From a virus: a DNA stretch of 29,034 nt. Positions within the stretch are counted from its first letter, which is position 1; each line of letters begins with the position of its first letter. A program made the position numbers and the translations under genes. The DNA is taken from positions 1 through 29,034 of the IMG/VR virus record IMGVR_UViG_3300021197_000740; one strand, 5' to 3'. The notes under the pieces are model-generated. The model saw only the letters and a program-made list of their open reading frames with translations. It ran no database searches and was not told where the DNA came from. Below are positions 1 to 28,975 of the stretch, piece by piece.

Positions 1-1
1 A

Positions 2-52
2 TTTATACAGAGAGATTATAGTGAAAGAGCATTAAAAAAGAATAACCCATGA
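2..52 (+). CDS. C-terminal end of an upstream gene, cut by the window edge
   Basis: An open frame enters from the left edge, encodes FIQRDYSERALKKNNP and stops at TGA 50-52. The stop overlaps the ATG of the next gene (49-51) in an ATGA arrangement, which is typical of translationally coupled phage genes. Only 16 residues are visible, so the product cannot be identified. Confidence 0.45.
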   Translation, partial: FIQRDYSERALKKNNP

Positions 53-351
53 AAAAAATAACAACCATACTAATACTAATACTATCATTAGGAGTATATA
101 GCCAAGACATTAAAATAACATACGATAAGGAACAACAATAGTATATTATAAACTCAAACGAACCTATTAAAAAAATAGAATACGCAAGAGTAAAGAACAA
201 ACAATACAATCATTTAAAGACTGTAGAACCATGTAATAATACTTACGTAATACCTAACAACCATTTTAAATATAAAACCATTAGAGTAACTATAACAACA
301 CACTCGGGTGCAATGATACAAGACTTTATAACTAAAAATAAACGTATGTAA
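49..351 (+). pseudogene. Small secreted protein gene interrupted by an in-frame TAG
   Basis: The ATG at 49 begins a signal peptide (MKKITTILILILSLGVYSQ, with the likely cleavage after a residue near SQ). The frame meets TAG at 139-141 (codon 31), then continues with no further stop for 69 codons to TAA at 349-351. The part after the TAG looks like ordinary protein, with a mix of charged, aromatic and polar residues and one Cys, and it has no Met near the TAG that could serve as a new start. As written, the product is a 30-residue stub. The full frame would give a secreted protein of about 100 residues of unknown function. The stop overlaps the next ATG by one base (TAATG), so the gene order is intact. 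The choices are a nonsense mutation, a sequencing error or amber read-through; the sequence alone does not decide. Confidence 0.5.
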
Positions 352-590
352 TGGATAAGTTTAAAATAGAATCACATAATGCACTATTAATATATGTAGC
401 AGCTTGTTTAATATTTTTATTTGCTTTAGCTATCAGTGGAGCGTCAGAAGTTGAGAAAAGAGAAGAAGCGCTATCTACTTTTATTGGAGATAAATACAAA
501 ACACATAAGATTGTATGATATAAATATCCAAATAGTTTATTGCTAAGCAGTGGTGAATGGATTGATTATAGAATCGTATTAAATAAATAA
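351..590 (+). pseudogene. Small single-pass membrane protein gene with an in-frame TGA
   Basis: The ATG at 351 overlaps the stop of the preceding gene. The first 55 residues hold one membrane segment (around residues 12-29, rich in L, A, I and F), followed by a charged stretch, and end at TGA 516-518. The same frame then runs on for 23 codons (YKYPNSLLLSSGEWIDYRI and onward) to TAA 588-590. That extension reads like the end of a small beta-rich domain rather than noise. If TGA is a true stop, the product is 55 residues (351-518). If it replaced a sense codon such as TGG or CGA, the original protein was about 79 residues. The function is unknown. This is the second neighbouring gene with a single in-frame stop. 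Confidence 0.45.
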
Positions 591-670
591 CTAAAACAAA
601 AAGAAAGTAATAATAAAAGGGATAAGCCGAAACCCTAAATAGTCGGTAAACATTTAAAAACAATTACATT

Positions 671-895
671 ATGTTAAAAAACATTTCAAATTTAGGAACA
701 GTATTAAGTAAACAAGACCAGCAAAAAGTAAAAGGTGGACAGCATTATGCAGTACATCATTGTGGGTCAAATATATTTCACGAAACATGTAACAGTAGTG
801 GTTATTGTAGGTATGAAAGATATGTAGTTCATAACGGTGATGTAGTAGAGTATTTTGCAAATTCAAGTCAAGGCGTAATGGCAGAAGTTTGCTAA
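671..895 (+). CDS. Double-glycine leader, bacteriocin-like peptide precursor
   Basis: This is a 74-residue precursor. The N-terminal 23 residues form a typical flavobacterial GG leader: it starts MLKNISNLG, has the pattern L-S-K-x-x-Q-Q in the middle and ends VKGG (residues 20-23). Such leaders are normally removed during export by a peptidase-containing ABC transporter. The predicted mature peptide has 51 residues, is rich in His and Tyr near its start, and has four Cys (residues 31, 40, 46, 74), enough for two disulfides, with the last Cys at the very C-terminus. No exporter, modification enzyme or immunity gene is visible here, so host machinery would be needed. Hairpins that could terminate transcription follow the stop. 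The leader class is a strong match; antibacterial activity is inferred only. It could also be a signalling peptide. Confidence 0.75.
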   Translation: MLKNISNLGTVLSKQDQQKVKGGQHYAVHHCGSNIFHETCNSSGYCRYERYVVHNGDVVEYFANSSQGVMAEVC

Positions 896-908
896 AAAAT
901 AATACATT

Positions 909-941
909 AAAAGCCTTGTATATAACACATAAGGCTTTTAT
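909..941 (+). terminator. Hairpin terminator after the GG-leader peptide gene
   Basis: A perfect 9-bp stem, AAAAGCCTT (909-917) with AAGGCTTTT (931-939), encloses a 13-base loop. It starts 13 bases after the peptide stop codon. The T-run lies mostly inside the stem, so termination may be partial. The stem also carries promoter elements (see 916-946). Confidence 0.55.
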
Positions 942-946
942 CTTTG
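916..946 (+). promoter_or_regulatory. Bacteroidota-type promoter inside the terminator hairpin
   Basis: TTG at 916-918, a 20-base spacer, then TATCTTTG at 939-946. This matches the Bacteroidota consensus (-33 TTG, -7 TAnnTTTG) exactly. The start point would be near 950-953. The -33 element lies in the left arm of the hairpin and the -7 box begins at the last base of the right arm. Confidence 0.55.
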
Positions 947-950
947 CAAA

Positions 951-1021
951 GCATGAATGTAAGGGACTCATGTAATTTATATATTAAGGGGTGAAACACG
1001 TTGTAAAAGGCGTGTTTTTTT
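951..1021 (+). ncRNA. Possible small RNA of about 70 nt
   Basis: The interval is bounded by a consensus-like promoter (916-946) and an intrinsic terminator (994-1021), which predicts a discrete transcript of about 70 nt. The only reading frame inside is ATG 953 to TGA, 13 codons, starting MNVRDSC. It could be a small regulatory RNA or encode a micro-peptide. No known RNA family is recognised. The 3' end overlaps the stop codon of the opposing minus-strand gene, so it could interact with that message. Confidence 0.35.
994..1021 (+). terminator. Rho-independent terminator
   Basis: The stem AAACACG (994-1000) pairs perfectly with CGTGTTT (1011-1017). The loop has 10 bases, and the stem is followed by an unbroken T-run to 1021. 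It suits transcripts from the left, either read-through from the GG-leader gene or the putative small RNA. Confidence 0.7.
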
Positions 1022-1217
1022 ATACAAGTCTTTGGAAGTTATAAGCACCATTACTAAATTCATCTTGTTCTTTGAATCTTCTATAGTACCAGTTATAACT
1101 TCTTTTAACTTCAGCTACATTATTAAACAGCGTAACGAACTCACTTAGATTCGTGGCTATTACTATTACTTTATTATCCTTACAGCAGCTATATAAGCTC
1201 TTCACCTCATTATTCAT
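1020..1217 (-). CDS. Small hypothetical protein, 65 aa
   Basis: This minus-strand frame begins at ATG 1217 and ends at TAA 1022-1020. The product starts MNNEVKSLYSCCKDNK and then VIVIATNLSEFVTLF. It is of mixed charge with a Cys pair (residues 11-12) and several aromatic residues near the C-terminal half (YNWYYRRF). There is no membrane segment or recognised domain. It is not opposite any plus-strand gene, and an exact -7 box (TATATTTG, minus strand 1229-1222) lies 4 bases upstream of the ATG. Both points favour a real gene. The promoter position implies a leaderless or nearly leaderless message. The gene runs head-on into the terminator at 994-1021. Confidence 0.6.
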   Translation of the reverse strand: MNNEVKSLYSCCKDNKVIVIATNLSEFVTLFNNVAEVKRSYNWYYRRFKEQDEFSNGAYNFQRLV

Positions 1218-1221
1218 GTTA

Positions 1222-1229
1222 CAAATATA
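1222..1229 (-). promoter_or_regulatory. -7 box for the 65-aa minus-strand gene
   Basis: TATATTTG on the minus strand matches TAnnTTTG exactly and lies 4 bases from the ATG at 1217. No clear TTG element is seen 18-22 bases further upstream, so the promoter is only half supported. Confidence 0.45.
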
Positions 1230-1258
1230 AAAAATAAACGGGATTATTTTATAAAAAG

Positions 1259-1290
1259 TTTGGTTATTATGTAAAAAGTATATATCTTTA
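1259..1290 (+). promoter_or_regulatory. Promoter for the leader/tRNA region, probably the late operon
   Basis: TTTG at 1259-1262, a 20-base spacer, then TATCTTTA at 1283-1290 (seven of eight bases fit TAnnTTTG). The start point would be near 1295. It lies upstream of the attenuator-like leader and the tRNA. No comparably good promoter is seen between the tRNA and the terminase genes, so the late genes may depend on read-through from here. Confidence 0.55.
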
Positions 1291-1299
1291 CAGTGCTAA

Positions 1300-1385
1300 A
1301 AGTAGATTTTTTCATATTAAATTTTGCTCTCTACTTGTAAAAAGAAATGAGGTGATTAATGAAGTAGTACAAGTAGAGAGTTTTT
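1300..1385 (+). promoter_or_regulatory. Attenuator-like leader with two competing hairpins
   Basis: A perfect 12-bp inverted repeat, CTCTCTACTTGT (1327-1338) and ACAAGTAGAGAG (1369-1380), has a 30-base loop and is followed by five Ts. That makes a strong terminator-like stem just before the tRNA. An upstream AAGTAGA (1300-1306) can pair with TCTACTT (1330-1336) in the left arm of that stem, so the two structures exclude each other. This is the usual layout of an antiterminator and terminator. The loop contains only start-stop mini-frames. No known riboswitch class is recognised. Confidence 0.45.
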
Positions 1386-1389
1386 AAAC

Positions 1390-1506
1390 GGTAAAGTGGC
1401 GGAATTGGTAGACGCTATTAATAGTCAGGGCGATATCCCTATAAAGTAAAGTTAGATATAACTTGAAATTGATAACGGCGTGCAGGTTCGAGTCCTGTCT
1501 TTACCA
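1390..1506 (+). tRNA. Leu-type tRNA-like gene with an enlarged centre; anticodon not assignable
   Basis: The acceptor arms GGTAAAG (1390-1396) and CTTTACC (1499-1505) pair over all 7 bases. The D arm GCG...CGC with the GAATTGGTAGA loop (1399-1415) is the class II Leu pattern. The T arm is GCAGG, TTCGAGT, CCTGT (1482-1498), and A1506 is the discriminator. The span of 117 nt is about 30 longer than a normal tRNA-Leu. Between the D and T arms lie two hairpins, AGGG/CCCT (1427-1430 with 1437-1440) and AAGTTA/TAACTT (1449-1454 with 1459-1464). Neither is a standard 5-bp, 7-nt anticodon arm. ATTAA (1417-1421) could pair with TTGAT (1469-1473), which would make the interior an insertion. The tRNA shape is well supported; function and isotype are not. 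No CCA is encoded. Confidence 0.65.
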
Positions 1507-1513
1507 CAAAGTT

Positions 1514-1590
1514 AGTTTTTAGTATCAGTAATTAGTTAGTTTAATTATTAAGTCCCTCGTATAGTTAGCGGGGGATTTTACCTAAAAACT
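1514..1590 (+). terminator. Terminator after the tRNA, nested in a second inverted repeat
   Basis: TCCCTCG (1553-1559) pairs with CGGGGGA (1569-1575) with one G-T pair, has a 9-base loop and is followed by TTTT. An outer perfect 9-bp repeat, AGTTTTTAG (1514-1522) and CTAAAAACT (1582-1590), encloses it. The inner hairpin probably ends or processes the tRNA transcript. The outer repeat may let either strand act as a terminator. Confidence 0.5.
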
Positions 1591-1635
1591 ATAACAAACG
1601 TAATAATAAATTAAATAACAATAAACTAAAACACC

Positions 1636-1686
1636 ATGAATAAATTAAACATAACAATAGAGACTAAAGAACATACTTTGAACTAG
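1636..1686 (+). CDS. Possible 16-aa micro-ORF
   Basis: ATG 1636 to TAG 1684-1686 encodes MNKLNITIETKEHTLN. Its start context (AAAACACC before ATG) resembles those of other genes here, and it ends 8 bases before the next gene. It could be a leader peptide that helps translation of the next gene. Nothing else supports it. Confidence 0.2.
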   Translation: MNKLNITIETKEHTLN

Positions 1687-1694
1687 ATTAAGAT

Positions 1695-2060
1695 ATGATT
1701 AAAGCAAACGATTTACGAATAGGAAATTATATATGGAATCCTGTACAACAATGTTATACAAAAGTAAATTTACAAGTATTAAGCAATATTATATCAGATG
1801 ATTACTATAAAAGAAAAAATGAATATAGGTTTCAAGAGATTGAATTGACGGATGAAATCCTTCTAAAGTGTGGTTTTAATAGGAATCATGACGAATATGA
1901 ATTAGAAGGGTTTATAATAGAAGAGGCTGGATGCGGAGAATATTATTATACTGCTGGTGAAGGTGTAAAGTTAAACCAATTACCAATACAGTATTTACAT
2001 GCACTACAGAACTGGTATTATTTGTACCAAGGCGATGAAGAACTAGAAATAAAACTATAG
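1695..2060 (+). CDS. Conserved Bacteroidota phage protein, 121 aa, unknown function
   Basis: The product begins MIKANDLRIGNYIW and ends with a segment of the type YLHALQNWYYLYQGDEEL. The pair of an N-terminal LRIGNxI and a C-terminal HxLQNxYY...GEEL pattern is a combination I associate with a small, widespread Bacteroidota phage and prophage protein. It also has an acidic middle with LTDEILLKCGF (residues 52-62). Its function is not established. It is soluble and has no membrane segment. It stops at TAG, and the next small gene starts 3 bases later in the same frame. Confidence 0.7.
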   Translation: MIKANDLRIGNYIWNPVQQCYTKVNLQVLSNIISDDYYKRKNEYRFQEIELTDEILLKCGFNRNHDEYELEGFIIEEAGCGEYYYTAGEGVKLNQLPIQYLHALQNWYYLYQGDEELEIKL

Positions 2061-2063
2061 ACA

Positions 2064-2228
2064 ATGGACTACGATATAATAATACATAGAAGACCTAAGT
2101 CAATAAATGATGCATTGATTGTTAAGTGTAAATTTACAGGTATTTATTTATTAGATATACCACTTACTAGTGATACAGTTTATCAATTAACAAAAGTAGT
2201 TAACGAAATACACGATAAAAATAAGTAA
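2064..2228 (+). CDS. Small hypothetical protein, 54 aa
   Basis: ATG 2064 to TAA 2226-2228 encodes a 54-residue soluble protein starting MDYDIIIHRRPKSINDALIV. It fits tightly between its neighbours, with a 3-base gap upstream and 4 bases downstream, as in a phage operon. There is no recognised domain. It follows the TAG of the previous gene in the same frame, so a read-through fusion is formally possible. Confidence 0.55.
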   Translation: MDYDIIIHRRPKSINDALIVKCKFTGIYLLDIPLTSDTVYQLTKVVNEIHDKNK

Positions 2229-2232
2229 CACA

Positions 2233-2556
2233 ATGAGAGAACTAACTAAACAAAAAATAAAACAACTATTAAACCATCAAGAAACAGGTTTAAAAGAAAG
2301 AAATACTATAAGAAAGCATATATCTAGATTAATACCAGTATTAAGCAGAGAGTTAATAAACTACTTAGTACTTGAATTAGATGTAACCAGGGACATAGTA
2401 AAAGAAGATATTAAATTCTACGAGTTATTAAATAAATACTCTAGGAAAGACTTTGAAGATTCAAACGATAAGAACCTTCCAACTATCTTGCATAAAATGA
2501 ATATGCTAAGTGTTTATATAAACTCAATTAATAACGCAGAAGAACGATTAAAATAA
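2233..2556 (+). CDS. Hypothetical helical protein, 107 aa
   Basis: The product begins MRELTKQKIKQLLNHQETGL. It is highly charged and predicted mostly helical, with heptad-like hydrophobic spacing over residues 30-75 and no Cys. There is no recognised family. It lies just upstream of the packaging genes in a tightly packed operon, so a role in packaging or late regulation is possible but not shown. Confidence 0.6.
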   Translation: MRELTKQKIKQLLNHQETGLKERNTIRKHISRLIPVLSRELINYLVLELDVTRDIVKEDIKFYELLNKYSRKDFEDSNDKNLPTILHKMNMLSVYINSINNAEERLK

Positions 2557-2589
2557 ATTTACGTACCTTGTATGTAGTAAATAGATAAT

Positions 2590-2706
2590 ATGGGTAAAAG
2601 TAAATGCATAGAAAGACTAGTATTTAAATACGATCCAATACTAGGATTAACATTCTATTTAAAGAAGTATAAAACGTATAACAAAGAAAGTAAATATATA
2701 AAGTAA
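2590..2706 (+). CDS. Small basic hypothetical protein, 38 aa
   Basis: ATG 2590 to TAA 2704-2706 encodes a 38-residue Lys- and Tyr-rich peptide starting MGKSKCIERLVFKYDP. Its stop overlaps the next ATG by one base (TAATG), a junction seen repeatedly in this operon, which supports translation. It may help re-initiation at the next gene. There is no recognised domain. Confidence 0.45.
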   Translation: MGKSKCIERLVFKYDPILGLTFYLKKYKTYNKESKYIK

Positions 2707-3101
2707 TGTCAGCAGGAGCACCAGAAGAAAATAAGAACGCAGAGAAATGGACAGAAGATAAAGCTATTGAATTCTTTAATGATTCATTTAAGCTATGTGA
2801 TGAAAAAGGACATGACTTTATAGGGGAAGTGGCAAGAGATATGAATACTTACAGAGAAATATATGTTTATTTAAAAGATAAATATAAAAGCTGTAAGAGC
2901 CTATATAACAACCTTTTACAACTATGTGAGGCAAATTGTTTTTCACACGGAAAGAAAGGAGAGATCAATACAGCAATGGCTATCGTTAACTTAAAGAGCA
3001 ATCACGGATGGACTGATAGAGTAGATACAACCACTAAAGACAAGGAAGTATCAACAACAACTATCATTAACTTAGGAGAAGGTAAGAACCCTGATAAATA
3101 G
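2706..3101 (+). CDS. terS: Terminase small subunit
   Basis: TerS recognises the phage DNA and hands it to the large subunit. The 131-residue product lies directly upstream of the large terminase apart from one tiny gene. Its residues 89-106 (TAMAIVNLKSNHGWTDRV) match the conserved C-terminal signature of phage DNA-packaging small subunits, which has the general form xFxLKNxxGWxDK. The N-terminal half (residues 17-80) is helical and contains the kind of pattern expected for a DNA-binding domain (EVARDMNTYREIYVYLKDKY). An acidic and polar tail follows. The start at 2706 overlaps the stop of the 38-aa gene. Confidence 0.75.
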   Translation: MSAGAPEENKNAEKWTEDKAIEFFNDSFKLCDEKGHDFIGEVARDMNTYREIYVYLKDKYKSCKSLYNNLLQLCEANCFSHGKKGEINTAMAIVNLKSNHGWTDRVDTTTKDKEVSTTTIINLGEGKNPDK

Positions 3102-3104
3102 ATT

Positions 3105-3257
3105 ATGAAATCAAATAAAACATATTTATTTTGGGATAGTTCAAATCAAGGAACTTACATTAAGCCTAAGCCAAAAGTTAATAAAGAAAGTGTTGAAAAC
3201 AGATGTTGCCCTATTCCTTCAATAGAATGGACACCTTGTAATTCCAAGATAAAATAA
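3105..3257 (+). CDS. Small Cys-containing hypothetical protein, 50 aa
   Basis: ATG 3105 to TAA 3255-3257 encodes a 50-residue protein starting MKSNKTYLFWDSSNQGTYIK. It has a CC pair (residues 34-35) and one more Cys (45). It sits 3 bases after the terS stop (TAG) in the same frame and 3 bases before terL. The spacing supports a real gene. Its function is unknown; a three-Cys metal site is possible but not evident. Confidence 0.5.
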   Translation: MKSNKTYLFWDSSNQGTYIKPKPKVNKESVENRCCPIPSIEWTPCNSKIK

Positions 3258-3260
3258 TTA

Positions 3261-4592
3261 ATGCAACTACTCCCTAAACAACAACACGCAGTATATTACT
3301 TAAAAGATTCTATCACTAAAGAAATACTTTACGGTGGAGCAGCTGGAGGAGCAAAAACTACTTTAGGTTGCATGTGGTTAATAGAGAGTTGCCAGAAGTA
3401 CCCAGGAAGTCGTTGGTTAATGGGTAGGTCAAAACTTAAAGCTTTAAAGAGAACCACGCTTTCAACTTTTTTTGACTTAGTGAAAATATTTAACATATCA
3501 GATCAATTCACATATAACGCTCAGAGTAACGAGATAACATGGAATAATGGCAGTGTAATAATATTAATGGATTTGTTTCTTTATCCTTCAGACCCTAATT
3601 TTGATGATTTAGGTTCACTTGAAATATGTGGCGCATTTGTAGATGAATGTAACCAAGTAGTACACAAGGCATGGCAAATAGTTAAATCTCGTTGCAGATA
3701 TAAACTTAAAGAATTTGGAATAGTTGGAAAAGTATTAGGTAGTTGTAACCCTGCTAAAAATTGGACTTATAAAGAGTTTTATAAAAAAGATAAAGATGGG
3801 ACTTTAGATTCTACTCGAAAGTTTATACAAGCATTACCAACAGACAACCCACACCTTCCAGAGTCTTATTTAGAATCTTTATTATCGTTAGATAAGAACA
3901 GCGTACAAAGGTTATACTATGGTAACTGGGAGTACGACGATGATCCAAGTGCATTAATAGACACCGATGCAATAGCAGATTACTTTAACCCTATTCACAT
4001 ACCAAGAGGAGGCACAAAGTATTTGACTATTGATGTCGCACGTAAAGGAAAGGATAAAACAGTATTTAGAGTATGGGAAGGATTTTTATGTACTCATAGA
4101 TATGAGATACCAGAGGATGAAATACCACCACAAGTAGAAAAAGCTAAAGAGATACAAAGAAATCATGGCATAAGTAACAGTTGTACTATAGCGGACGAAG
4201 ATGGTGTAGGAGGTGGATTTGTAGATATGTTGAGATGTAAAGGGTTTATAAATAACTTAACTCCTATAAAGGAATTAGTTGGCGACACTAAAATTACACC
4301 AAATTATAAAAACCTTAAATCACAATGTGCCATAAGAATGGCTAACAAAATACAAAATAGACAAGCTGGAGAACTATGTAATGATTCCTTAGTAAGAGAT
4401 AGAACCTCAGAAGAAATGGAACAGGTTAAGATTTACAACATGGATAAAGATGTTAAGTTAACTGTTCTACCAAAAGAAAAAATAAAGGACTTGATTGGAC
4501 GATCAACAGACGATTGGGATAGTATAATGATGAGATACTATTTTGAACTACAGCCAAAAAGATCAATAAGAATAAGAACACGTAAAAGATAA
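3261..4592 (+). CDS. terL: Terminase large subunit
   Basis: This is the ATP-driven DNA packaging motor with a headful or site-specific nuclease. The 443 residues fit the usual size. Walker A is GGAAGGAKTT (residues 25-34) and Walker B is GAFVDE (124-129). A coupling segment, GSCNPAKNW, lies at 160-168. The C-terminal RNase H-like nuclease has acidic residues in YLTIDVARKGKDKT (Asp258), IADEDG (Asp312, Asp314) and STDDWDSIMMR (Asp417, Asp418, Asp420). It acts with TerS and docks on the portal encoded 13 kb downstream. The gene is intact. Confidence 0.95.
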   Translation: MQLLPKQQHAVYYLKDSITKEILYGGAAGGAKTTLGCMWLIESCQKYPGSRWLMGRSKLKALKRTTLSTFFDLVKIFNISDQFTYNAQSNEITWNNGSVIILMDLFLYPSDPNFDDLGSLEICGAFVDECNQVVHKAWQIVKSRCRYKLKEFGIVGKVLGSCNPAKNWTYKEFYKKDKDGTLDSTRKFIQALPTDNPHLPESYLESLLSLDKNSVQRLYYGNWEYDDDPSALIDTDAIADYFNPIHIPRGGTKYLTIDVARKGKDKTVFRVWEGFLCTHRYEIPEDEIPPQVEKAKEIQRNHGISNSCTIADEDGVGGGFVDMLRCKGFINNLTPIKELVGDTKITPNYKNLKSQCAIRMANKIQNRQAGELCNDSLVRDRTSEEMEQVKIYNMDKDVKLTVLPKEKIKDLIGRSTDDWDSIMMRYYFELQPKRSIRIRTRKR

Positions 4593-13369: not shown

Positions 13370-13585
13370 ATGGGCGATGAGTTTATAAAATTTATTAGGA
13401 TTGGATTAATACCAATACATCTAACTACTTACAAAGTTGTATATGAAGAATACAAAAAACAGCTTCAAATACATTCAGACGAACCATTTAAAGCTGTTAA
13501 AAATACCGCTATAGATTACGATTTACAGATAAGGCAAGTATATCGAATTATAGAATACATGTCTACTTCTTTTCAAACTCAATAA
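13370..13585 (+). CDS. Small helical protein, possible HTH type, about 71 aa
   Basis: The frame is open from ATG 13295, but that start lies deep inside the previous gene. ATG 13370 is 5 bases after that gene's stop and is preferred; ATG 13331 and 13340 are other options. From 13370 the product begins MGDEFIKFIRIGLIPIHLTT and has a C-terminal segment, AIDYDLQIRQVYRIIEYM, that resembles the recognition half of a helix-turn-helix. A DNA-binding or assembly role is possible. It is the last gene of the left structural operon, and its 3' end overlaps the opposing minus-strand gene by 23 bases. Confidence 0.55.
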   Translation: MGDEFIKFIRIGLIPIHLTTYKVVYEEYKKQLQIHSDEPFKAVKNTAIDYDLQIRQVYRIIEYMSTSFQTQ

Positions 13586-13889
13586 TATCTGGATTAAATT
13601 GCACGCTAAATTTAGTATCTCCCATTTTTATACTAGTTACATGAGTTACTAATCCTAACTTAACGTTTCTGTGACATAATATAAATTCGTCTGGGGATTC
13701 ATTATCATCTCTATACATTTTAATACAATTCTTAAAATCTTTTTCAGTTGGTGCATATCCTAAATATTGATTTAAGACTTTAGTTATACAGTTTAATTCG
13801 CATTCTTGTTGTTTTTTGATTAAATCAATTGCTAATTTAGTAACTAATTTTTTATCTTCTTGAATTCCTTTTAAAGCTACTGGCTTCAT
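13563..13889 (-). CDS. Single minus-strand gene inside the structural cluster, 108 aa
   Basis: The product begins MKPVALKGIQEDKKLVTKLA. It is soluble and charged, with three Cys (residues 29, 34, 55) and a beta-rich C-terminal half (VKLGLVTHVTSIKMG and FSVQFNPDI). I do not recognise a family. It is the only minus-strand gene in 27 kb of plus-strand genes, and it has its own upstream promoter-like elements (13914-13942). This is the typical setting of an accessory gene, or moron, expressed separately from the late genes. It could act in the lysogen or early, but no function can be assigned. Its 3' end overlaps the convergent gene. Confidence 0.65.
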   Translation of the reverse strand: MKPVALKGIQEDKKLVTKLAIDLIKKQQECELNCITKVLNQYLGYAPTEKDFKNCIKMYRDDNESPDEFILCHRNVKLGLVTHVTSIKMGDTKFSVQFNPDIIEFEKK

Positions 13890-28493: not shown

Positions 28494-28925
28494 TTAGCTA
28501 AACTTTAATTGGTTTATTGCTGATTGTGTTAGTTCTGGCTCTAAATCTTGTAGACTCTCTATAGTTGAATTAACAATTAGAAACACCTTAATATTATTCC
28601 TTTTATCTTTATAGTAAATATATTGGTCATCTACTTTAAACCCTTTAAACAATACACGTTCTTTTGCTTTTTGGTACTCTTTAAAGTCAATAAAATAATT
28701 TTCACTTATACCATTTGCGTCTTTGTAATAATCATCATTTGAATTTGGCTCTTCCAGTACATTACTTTCTAAATCACAAGGCACGAACATGCCAAGGGTT
28801 AAAGGTTGTTTTAGAAATTCTGCATAATATAGAATTTTATTTAGTCTAACTTGTATTTGACTTGAATCACTCGATAAATGATTTTTACTATCTAATACGT
28901 ATTCTATCATTGATATTAATTTCAT
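28494..28925 (-). CDS. Hypothetical protein, 143 aa
   Basis: The frame is open from ATG 28970, but a -7 box lies downstream of that start and before ATG 28925, so the start is set at 28925 (MKLISMIEYVLDSKNHLSSD). This gives 143 residues. Residues around 25-60 contain KILYYAEFLKQPLTLGMFVP followed by CDLESNVLEEP, a recognisable conserved-looking block. The protein is soluble and of mixed charge. I do not know its function. With the 45-aa gene it forms a two-gene minus-strand unit opposing the lysis module, possibly an early or control unit. Confidence 0.6.
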   Translation of the reverse strand: MKLISMIEYVLDSKNHLSSDSSQIQVRLNKILYYAEFLKQPLTLGMFVPCDLESNVLEEPNSNDDYYKDANGISENYFIDFKEYQKAKERVLFKGFKVDDQYIYYKDKRNNIKVFLIVNSTIESLQDLEPELTQSAINQLKFS

Positions 28926-28948
28926 GGTATATATTTTTAAATTCCCTA

Positions 28949-28975
28949 CAAAGATACATCTACCATTCAAATATA
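28949..28975 (-). promoter_or_regulatory. Two -7 boxes upstream of the minus-strand pair
   Basis: On the minus strand, TATCTTTG (28956-28949) and TATATTTG (28975-28968) both match TAnnTTTG. The nearer box would start transcription around 28943, leaving about 18 bases before ATG 28925. A clear -33 TTG at the right distance is absent for both. Confidence 0.45.

Follow-up and report, generated by a model that had tools for sequence, protein, structure and literature searches.

The window analysed here is the complete IMG/VR record of a virus fragment (29,034 bases, linear). Its ORF at 671-895 (+), which has an ATG start and a TAA stop and encodes 74 AA, is fairly likely to be a captured member of the double-glycine (GG) leader, Cys-rich peptides of the phage's hosts, exported by the host machine. 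As judged from the sequence, the phage probably relies on the secretion machine of the bacterium for export of the peptide, and it is the phage location that is the unusual feature. Counted for this explanation were the identity of the leader, the traits of the peptide family, the co-occurrence with C39 exporters, the phage neighbourhood and the rarity in viruses. Counted against it were the longer, Cys-poorer and His/Tyr-richer core, the missing family-type promoter, the Gln at position -7 of the leader, the core without a relative, the single viral instance and the lack of a recognised integrase or repressor in the fragment. The precursor gene consists of the following parts:

671..739 (+): double-glycine leader of 23 AA, MLKNISNLGTVLSKQDQQKVKGG, with C39 cleavage predicted after G23
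740..892 (+): core of 51 AA with four Cys, taken from the sequence
893..895 (+): TAA stop codon that ends the precursor gene

The full precursor is composed of MLKNISNLGTVLSKQDQQKVKGG as leader and QHYAVHHCGSNIFHETCNSSGYCRYERYVVHNGDVVEYFANSSQGVMAEVC as core, and the leader is 57-78% identical to 40 bacterial leaders. An HMM trained on 69 bacterial leaders, with the phage sequence left out, scored the phage ORF at 48.5 bits (E = 7.5e-13) among 24,979 frames from the window and 80 related phage loci. The runner-up among these frames had 10.5 bits, and the maximum in 60 codon-shuffled windows was 13.3 bits. The leader of flavobacterial type claimed in an earlier note on this DNA is therefore borne out, and the comparison supports the phage ORF as a true flavobacterial GG-leader precursor. 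A chance ORF, for which the core without a homologue could speak, is refuted by a leader score far above all of these controls, and its probability is practically nil.

Both traits of the MLKNISNLG-type peptide family are present in the phage ORF, namely the conserved leader of 23 AA with a GG end and a short core in which the Cys count is even, here four. Recognition by C39 peptidases involves positions -4, -7, -12 and the GG (PMC6363468), and C39/PCAT substrates are expected to be hydrophobic at -4, -7 and -12 and acidic at -8; the phage leader matches at L(-12), D(-8), V(-4) and GG. The ComA/LahT consensus has a hydrophobic residue, Leu, at position -7 (PMC6363468), whereas Gln occupies this position in the phage leader and family-wide, with few bacterial exceptions. 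Scans of the precursor ORF with Pfam, NCBIfam and PHROGs gave no meaningful match.

A leader scan covering 84,980 species genomes identified 73 bacterial loci that share the phage leader, nearly all of them in Tenacibaculum, Aquimarina or Dokdonia. The copy number of the leader ranges from 3 to 40 per genome (20 genomes counted). Across the bacterial family the leader is near-invariant and the core hypervariable. The 153 distinct bacterial cores have a median length of 33 AA and most often four Cys (four in 96 cores, six in 39). Since the number of Cys is even in 144 of the 152 cores analysed, disulfides are favoured. None of the Pfam and NCBIfam models attains its cut-off on the bacterial members tested, and the leader family of Tenacibaculum, Aquimarina and Dokdonia is large, dispersed and essentially unnamed. 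The NCBIfam model NF047798 (leader_Chryseo) is alike in describing a short GG leader domain of a bacteriocin-like protein; it matched three bacterial members weakly (12-13.5 bits, cut-off 23.5) and did not match the phage ORF.

At the DNA level, the identity between the phage gene and the bacterial genes begins about 15-24 bases before the leader, covers the leader and ends at the core. A search with the core alone in 397 Flavobacteriaceae genomes returned chance-level matches only (best E 0.004 per genome), and no relative of the phage core was found among the 153 bacterial cores. Of the separate searches with leader and core that the earlier note had proposed for flavobacterial genomes, the one with the leader thus found relatives and the one with the core found none in the 397 genomes. 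The note had also held that homologues with a non-conserved core would speak against its proposal. This test would be misleading, as members of this family have hypervariable cores as a rule.

The core of 51 residues with four Cys, rich in His and Tyr and located beside late genes, was confirmed from sequence and annotation as it had been described. It contains 4 Cys, 5 His and 5 Tyr in 51 AA, and the computed mass of the mature core with two disulfides is about 5795 Da. The phage core is longer than 95% of the bacterial cores, fewer than 5% of which reach 51 AA; its Cys content is lower (4 of 51) and its His/Tyr content higher than in the bacterial cores. A single-sequence AlphaFold2 model suggests a beta-beta-beta-beta-alpha arrangement with a pLDDT of about 71-87 for residues 21-74, a fold that is provisional since the model was built without an alignment. 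Foldseek searches of the PDB and BFVD with this model gave nothing below E 0.1, and no VIA-align comparison reached a Z of 5. In the second BFVD row, a protein of Tenacibaculum phage PTm1 was considered as a fold relative and judged to be a chance match (E 0.15). Provisionally, the modelled four-Cys core would belong to no known fold family.

Because such peptides were expected to lie beside an exporter, the location of the precursor without one had been regarded as special. For 72 of the 73 nearest bacterial relatives, no C39 gene lies within 8 kb, which rules out the missing exporter as an anomaly. The central surprise of the earlier note is therefore a property of the leader sub-type and not of the phage. 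Its general expectation holds in part for the broader Flavobacteriaceae family, in which 26 of 58 leaders are within 5 kb of a C39 domain, and fails for the leader sub-type, in which 1 of 73 loci has a C39 gene within 8 kb. No recurring maturation gene was found beside the nearest bacterial relatives, whose neighbours are mutually unrelated. In the 29-kb record itself, a linear fragment of the phage, no C39 gene was found.

Exporters of the expected type are nevertheless available in the genomes of the relatives. C39-peptidase ABC exporters are present in 20 of 20 genomes bearing the phage-type leader, which answers the proposed check for a C39 transporter as far as the genomes of the relatives are concerned. 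When a strong C39 match was scored in 299 Flavobacteriaceae genomes, it was present in 18 of the 20 genomes with the leader vs 64 of the 279 without it (Fisher p = 2e-9). In Tenacibaculum, the loci L230 and L231 contain about 16 GG peptides with a sister leader (MKKSILNLGK...) around a C39-ABC exporter, which in L230 has 728 AA. An HlyD protein is encoded in L231, and an ORF that matches it lies at the edge of L230, which also encodes a protein fusing C39-like, VKOR and thioredoxin domains. In a further Tenacibaculum locus, L233, the lengths and sequences of the ORFs indicate the same layout, and a C39-VKOR-thioredoxin fusion is probable there. Together, the three loci represent a large secreted-peptide system for which Pfam and NCBIfam have no leader model.

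According to the preferred explanation, the precursor would be made in a marine flavobacterium during infection or lysogeny, and a C39-peptidase ABC exporter of the host would recognise the leader via L-12, D-8, V-4 and GG. This exporter would cut after Gly23, the core of 51 AA would leave by a type-I-like path with HlyD, and the two disulfides would be formed by VKOR/thioredoxin proteins of the host. The exported peptide would have about 5.8 kDa, with the phage giving the payload only and the secretion machine being that of the host. More speculatively, the peptide may inhibit related bacteria or alter cell-cell signalling and so favour the phage-carrying cell, as sublancin does for the SPbeta lysogen; the bacteroidetocins offer a second analogy for a competitor-directed peptide. 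That the phage adds its own four-Cys payload to the hypervariable arsenal of its hosts and retains just the leader as an address, favouring phage-carrying cells over competitors while the host cleaves, oxidises and exports the peptide, is possible but somewhat less likely than not. An alternative is that the host exports a signalling peptide for phage-phage or phage-host communication instead of a toxin. C39 exporters export pheromones as well (PMC7018657, PMC6363468), and no immunity gene was recognised near the precursor. However, no receptor or regulator gene was seen adjoining it, with 51 AA and four Cys the core is larger than expected of a pheromone, and the cores of the family are hypervariable, of disulfide type and bacteriocin-like. 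We therefore regard this alternative as unlikely.

Among known systems, the nearest are the MLKNISNLG-type GG peptides of Tenacibaculum, Aquimarina and Dokdonia themselves, which share with the phage gene the 57-78% identical leader, the GG, the four Cys and the location away from an exporter. The phage gene differs from them in being phage-borne, in its unrelated and longer core with fewer Cys per residue, and in having no TAnnTTTG promoter. Contrary to the initial assumption that no characterised example exists in a phage setting, sublancin 168 (SunA/SunT/SunI/BdbB) of the Bacillus prophage SPbeta is a characterised phage precedent, although one with its own exporter (PMC8270828). It is similarly phage-encoded and, as predicted for the peptide described here, leader-cleaved, disulfide-bonded and dependent on a leader-cleaving transporter. 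SPbeta itself supplies the exporter, glycosyltransferase, oxidoreductase and immunity gene, none of which was recognised among the ORFs scanned in the 29-kb phage fragment. By analogy, the phage precursor may work like a phage-borne bacteriocin, with the other genes of the cassette missing from this record.

The bacteroidetocins are GG peptides of Bacteroidota with four Cys, a C39 ABC transporter and a thiol oxidoreductase; they have a leader of 15-16 AA, a core of 42 AA and a four-gene cluster including a TM protein (PMC6671954). The phage gene does not encode a bacteroidetocin, as its leader has 23 AA and the record contains neither such a cluster nor a C39 gene. Prochlorosins and synechococsins are comparable in that their precursors are hypervariable and their genes can be scattered away from the maturation genes (PMC10783134). 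These cyanobacterial peptides are lanthipeptides made by a LanM enzyme, whereas disulfides are inferred for the phage core.

Phages with whole biosynthetic clusters are known, for example for sublancin (PMC8270828), and further ones are attributed to Dragos et al. 2021, as cited in PMC12094771. Phage-borne secreted weapons have so far been known as whole cassettes. If the preferred explanation is true, a lone precursor that borrows the host's secretion via a leader label would be a cheaper route, and one could then test whether marine flavobacteria owe part of their hypervariable peptide pools to mobile elements. In addition, the analysis reveals a large family of dispersed GG peptides linked to a C39-ABC, HlyD and VKOR-thioredoxin system.

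No other case of the leader patterns was found in 2.9 million viral contigs of IMG/VR; as a control, the pattern retrieved the bacterial loci and the window itself. The leader consensus had no match in 50,697 phage records or in 72,556 plasmid records, and the leader was not found in 38 related phage records. These scans may not include the record of the window itself or close copies of it, and rare diverged cases could escape the contig scans because these use exact degenerate patterns. A single viral instance suits a passenger gene equally well, that is, a bacterial GG-peptide gene acquired by recombination, of no benefit to the phage and exported if expressed. This is consistent with the one instance across the viral collections searched and none in the 38 related phage records, with leader DNA that is close to bacterial DNA (blastn, 92% over 38 nt and 78% over 83 nt) and with the family-type promoter absent upstream. 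On the other hand, frame and leader are intact in a gene-dense phage, the core is unlike bacterial cores in length and composition, and a fairly confident fold is predicted from the single core sequence. Overall, a passenger without benefit appears somewhat unlikely.

Terminase genes and late structural genes follow about 2 kb downstream of the peptide gene, which is 670 bp away from the contig end. Two features frame this context:

2..348 (+): left flank with the end of an upstream gene and an ATGA overlap with a small secreted-protein ORF
2706..4592 (+): terminase small and large subunit genes, the large subunit matching phrog_2 (E 9e-31)

Behind the terminase genes lie those for the tail, a protease, the capsid, the portal and an endolysin. 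The terminase shares 73% identity with its counterpart in Cellulophaga phage phi10:1 and 57% with the one in Flavobacterium phage 11b, and DNA of the small-subunit region matches Olleya phage Harreka_1. From these relatives, the host of the phage is taken to be a flavobacterium, very likely a marine one. No integrase or repressor was recognised in the 29-kb fragment, and nothing in it points to lysogeny.

The proximity to the contig end raises the alternative that the left end is bacterial DNA, as a prophage flank or an assembly chimera, and that the peptide gene belongs to the host. A tRNA-like element (1390-1506) between the peptide gene and the first recognised phage gene would fit this. 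Yet positions 1-1690 had no match in 397 Flavobacteriaceae genomes beyond the leader, tRNA pieces and short AT-rich stretches, the base composition is even across 1-3000, and an insertion of 40 nt in the anticodon loop is odd for a host tRNA gene. Moreover, the small gene with the ATGA overlap resembles an arrangement upstream of the terminase in other phage contigs: a small gene directly 3' of a regulator-like gene and upstream of the terminase is also found in the viral contigs L229, L050, L041 and others. This arrangement supports, without proving, that the peptide gene is flanked by phage DNA to its left and right, and a bacterial left end seems quite improbable.

The small secreted-protein ORF at 49-348 (+), MKKITTILILILSLGVYSQ..., has one in-frame TAG at 139-141 and is otherwise open. 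Viral contig L229 encodes, upstream of its terminase, a protein with a similar signal peptide. Genome-wide recoding of TAG was judged an unlikely reason for this in-frame codon because TAG also terminates an ORF at 2060; the phage protein encoded by 1695-2060 has no close viral relative. The tRNA element at 1390-1506 (+) is above the Rfam threshold (37.2 bits). Its leucine-type 5' half is identical over 22 nt to flavobacterial DNA, an insertion of about 40 nt interrupts the anticodon loop, and ARAGORN detects the element only when introns are allowed. Two minus-strand genes lie further downstream, a lone one of 108 AA without a clear family within the late operon (13563-13889) and one of 158 AA at the right end (28494-28970) that corresponds to PHROG 12560, of unknown function.

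Two putative regulatory features adjoin the precursor gene:

647..670 (+): 5' untranslated stretch like that of the bacterial members (blastn to Flavobacteriaceae, 78-84% identity)
909..939 (+): hairpin AAAAGCCTT / AAGGCTTTT with a 13-nt loop behind the gene, read from the sequence

The blastn matches in Flavobacteriaceae genomes begin at 647-656 and extend through the leader; the resemblance of the untranslated stretch is weak evidence because it is AT-rich and offset by an indel. No TAnnTTTG promoter was found within 130 nt upstream of the phage gene, vs 48 of 120 bacterial genes having one. The hairpin at 909..939 is a possible transcription terminator. An automatic terminator scan found none behind the gene and missed this hairpin because its 13-nt loop exceeds the limit of the scan. 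In the stretch 939-1021 (+), a promoter of flavobacterial type (TTG, 20 nt, TATCTTTG) overlaps this hairpin and is followed after about 70 nt by a second hairpin with a T run. This combination of promoter and hairpin could possibly specify a small RNA of 70-80 nt.
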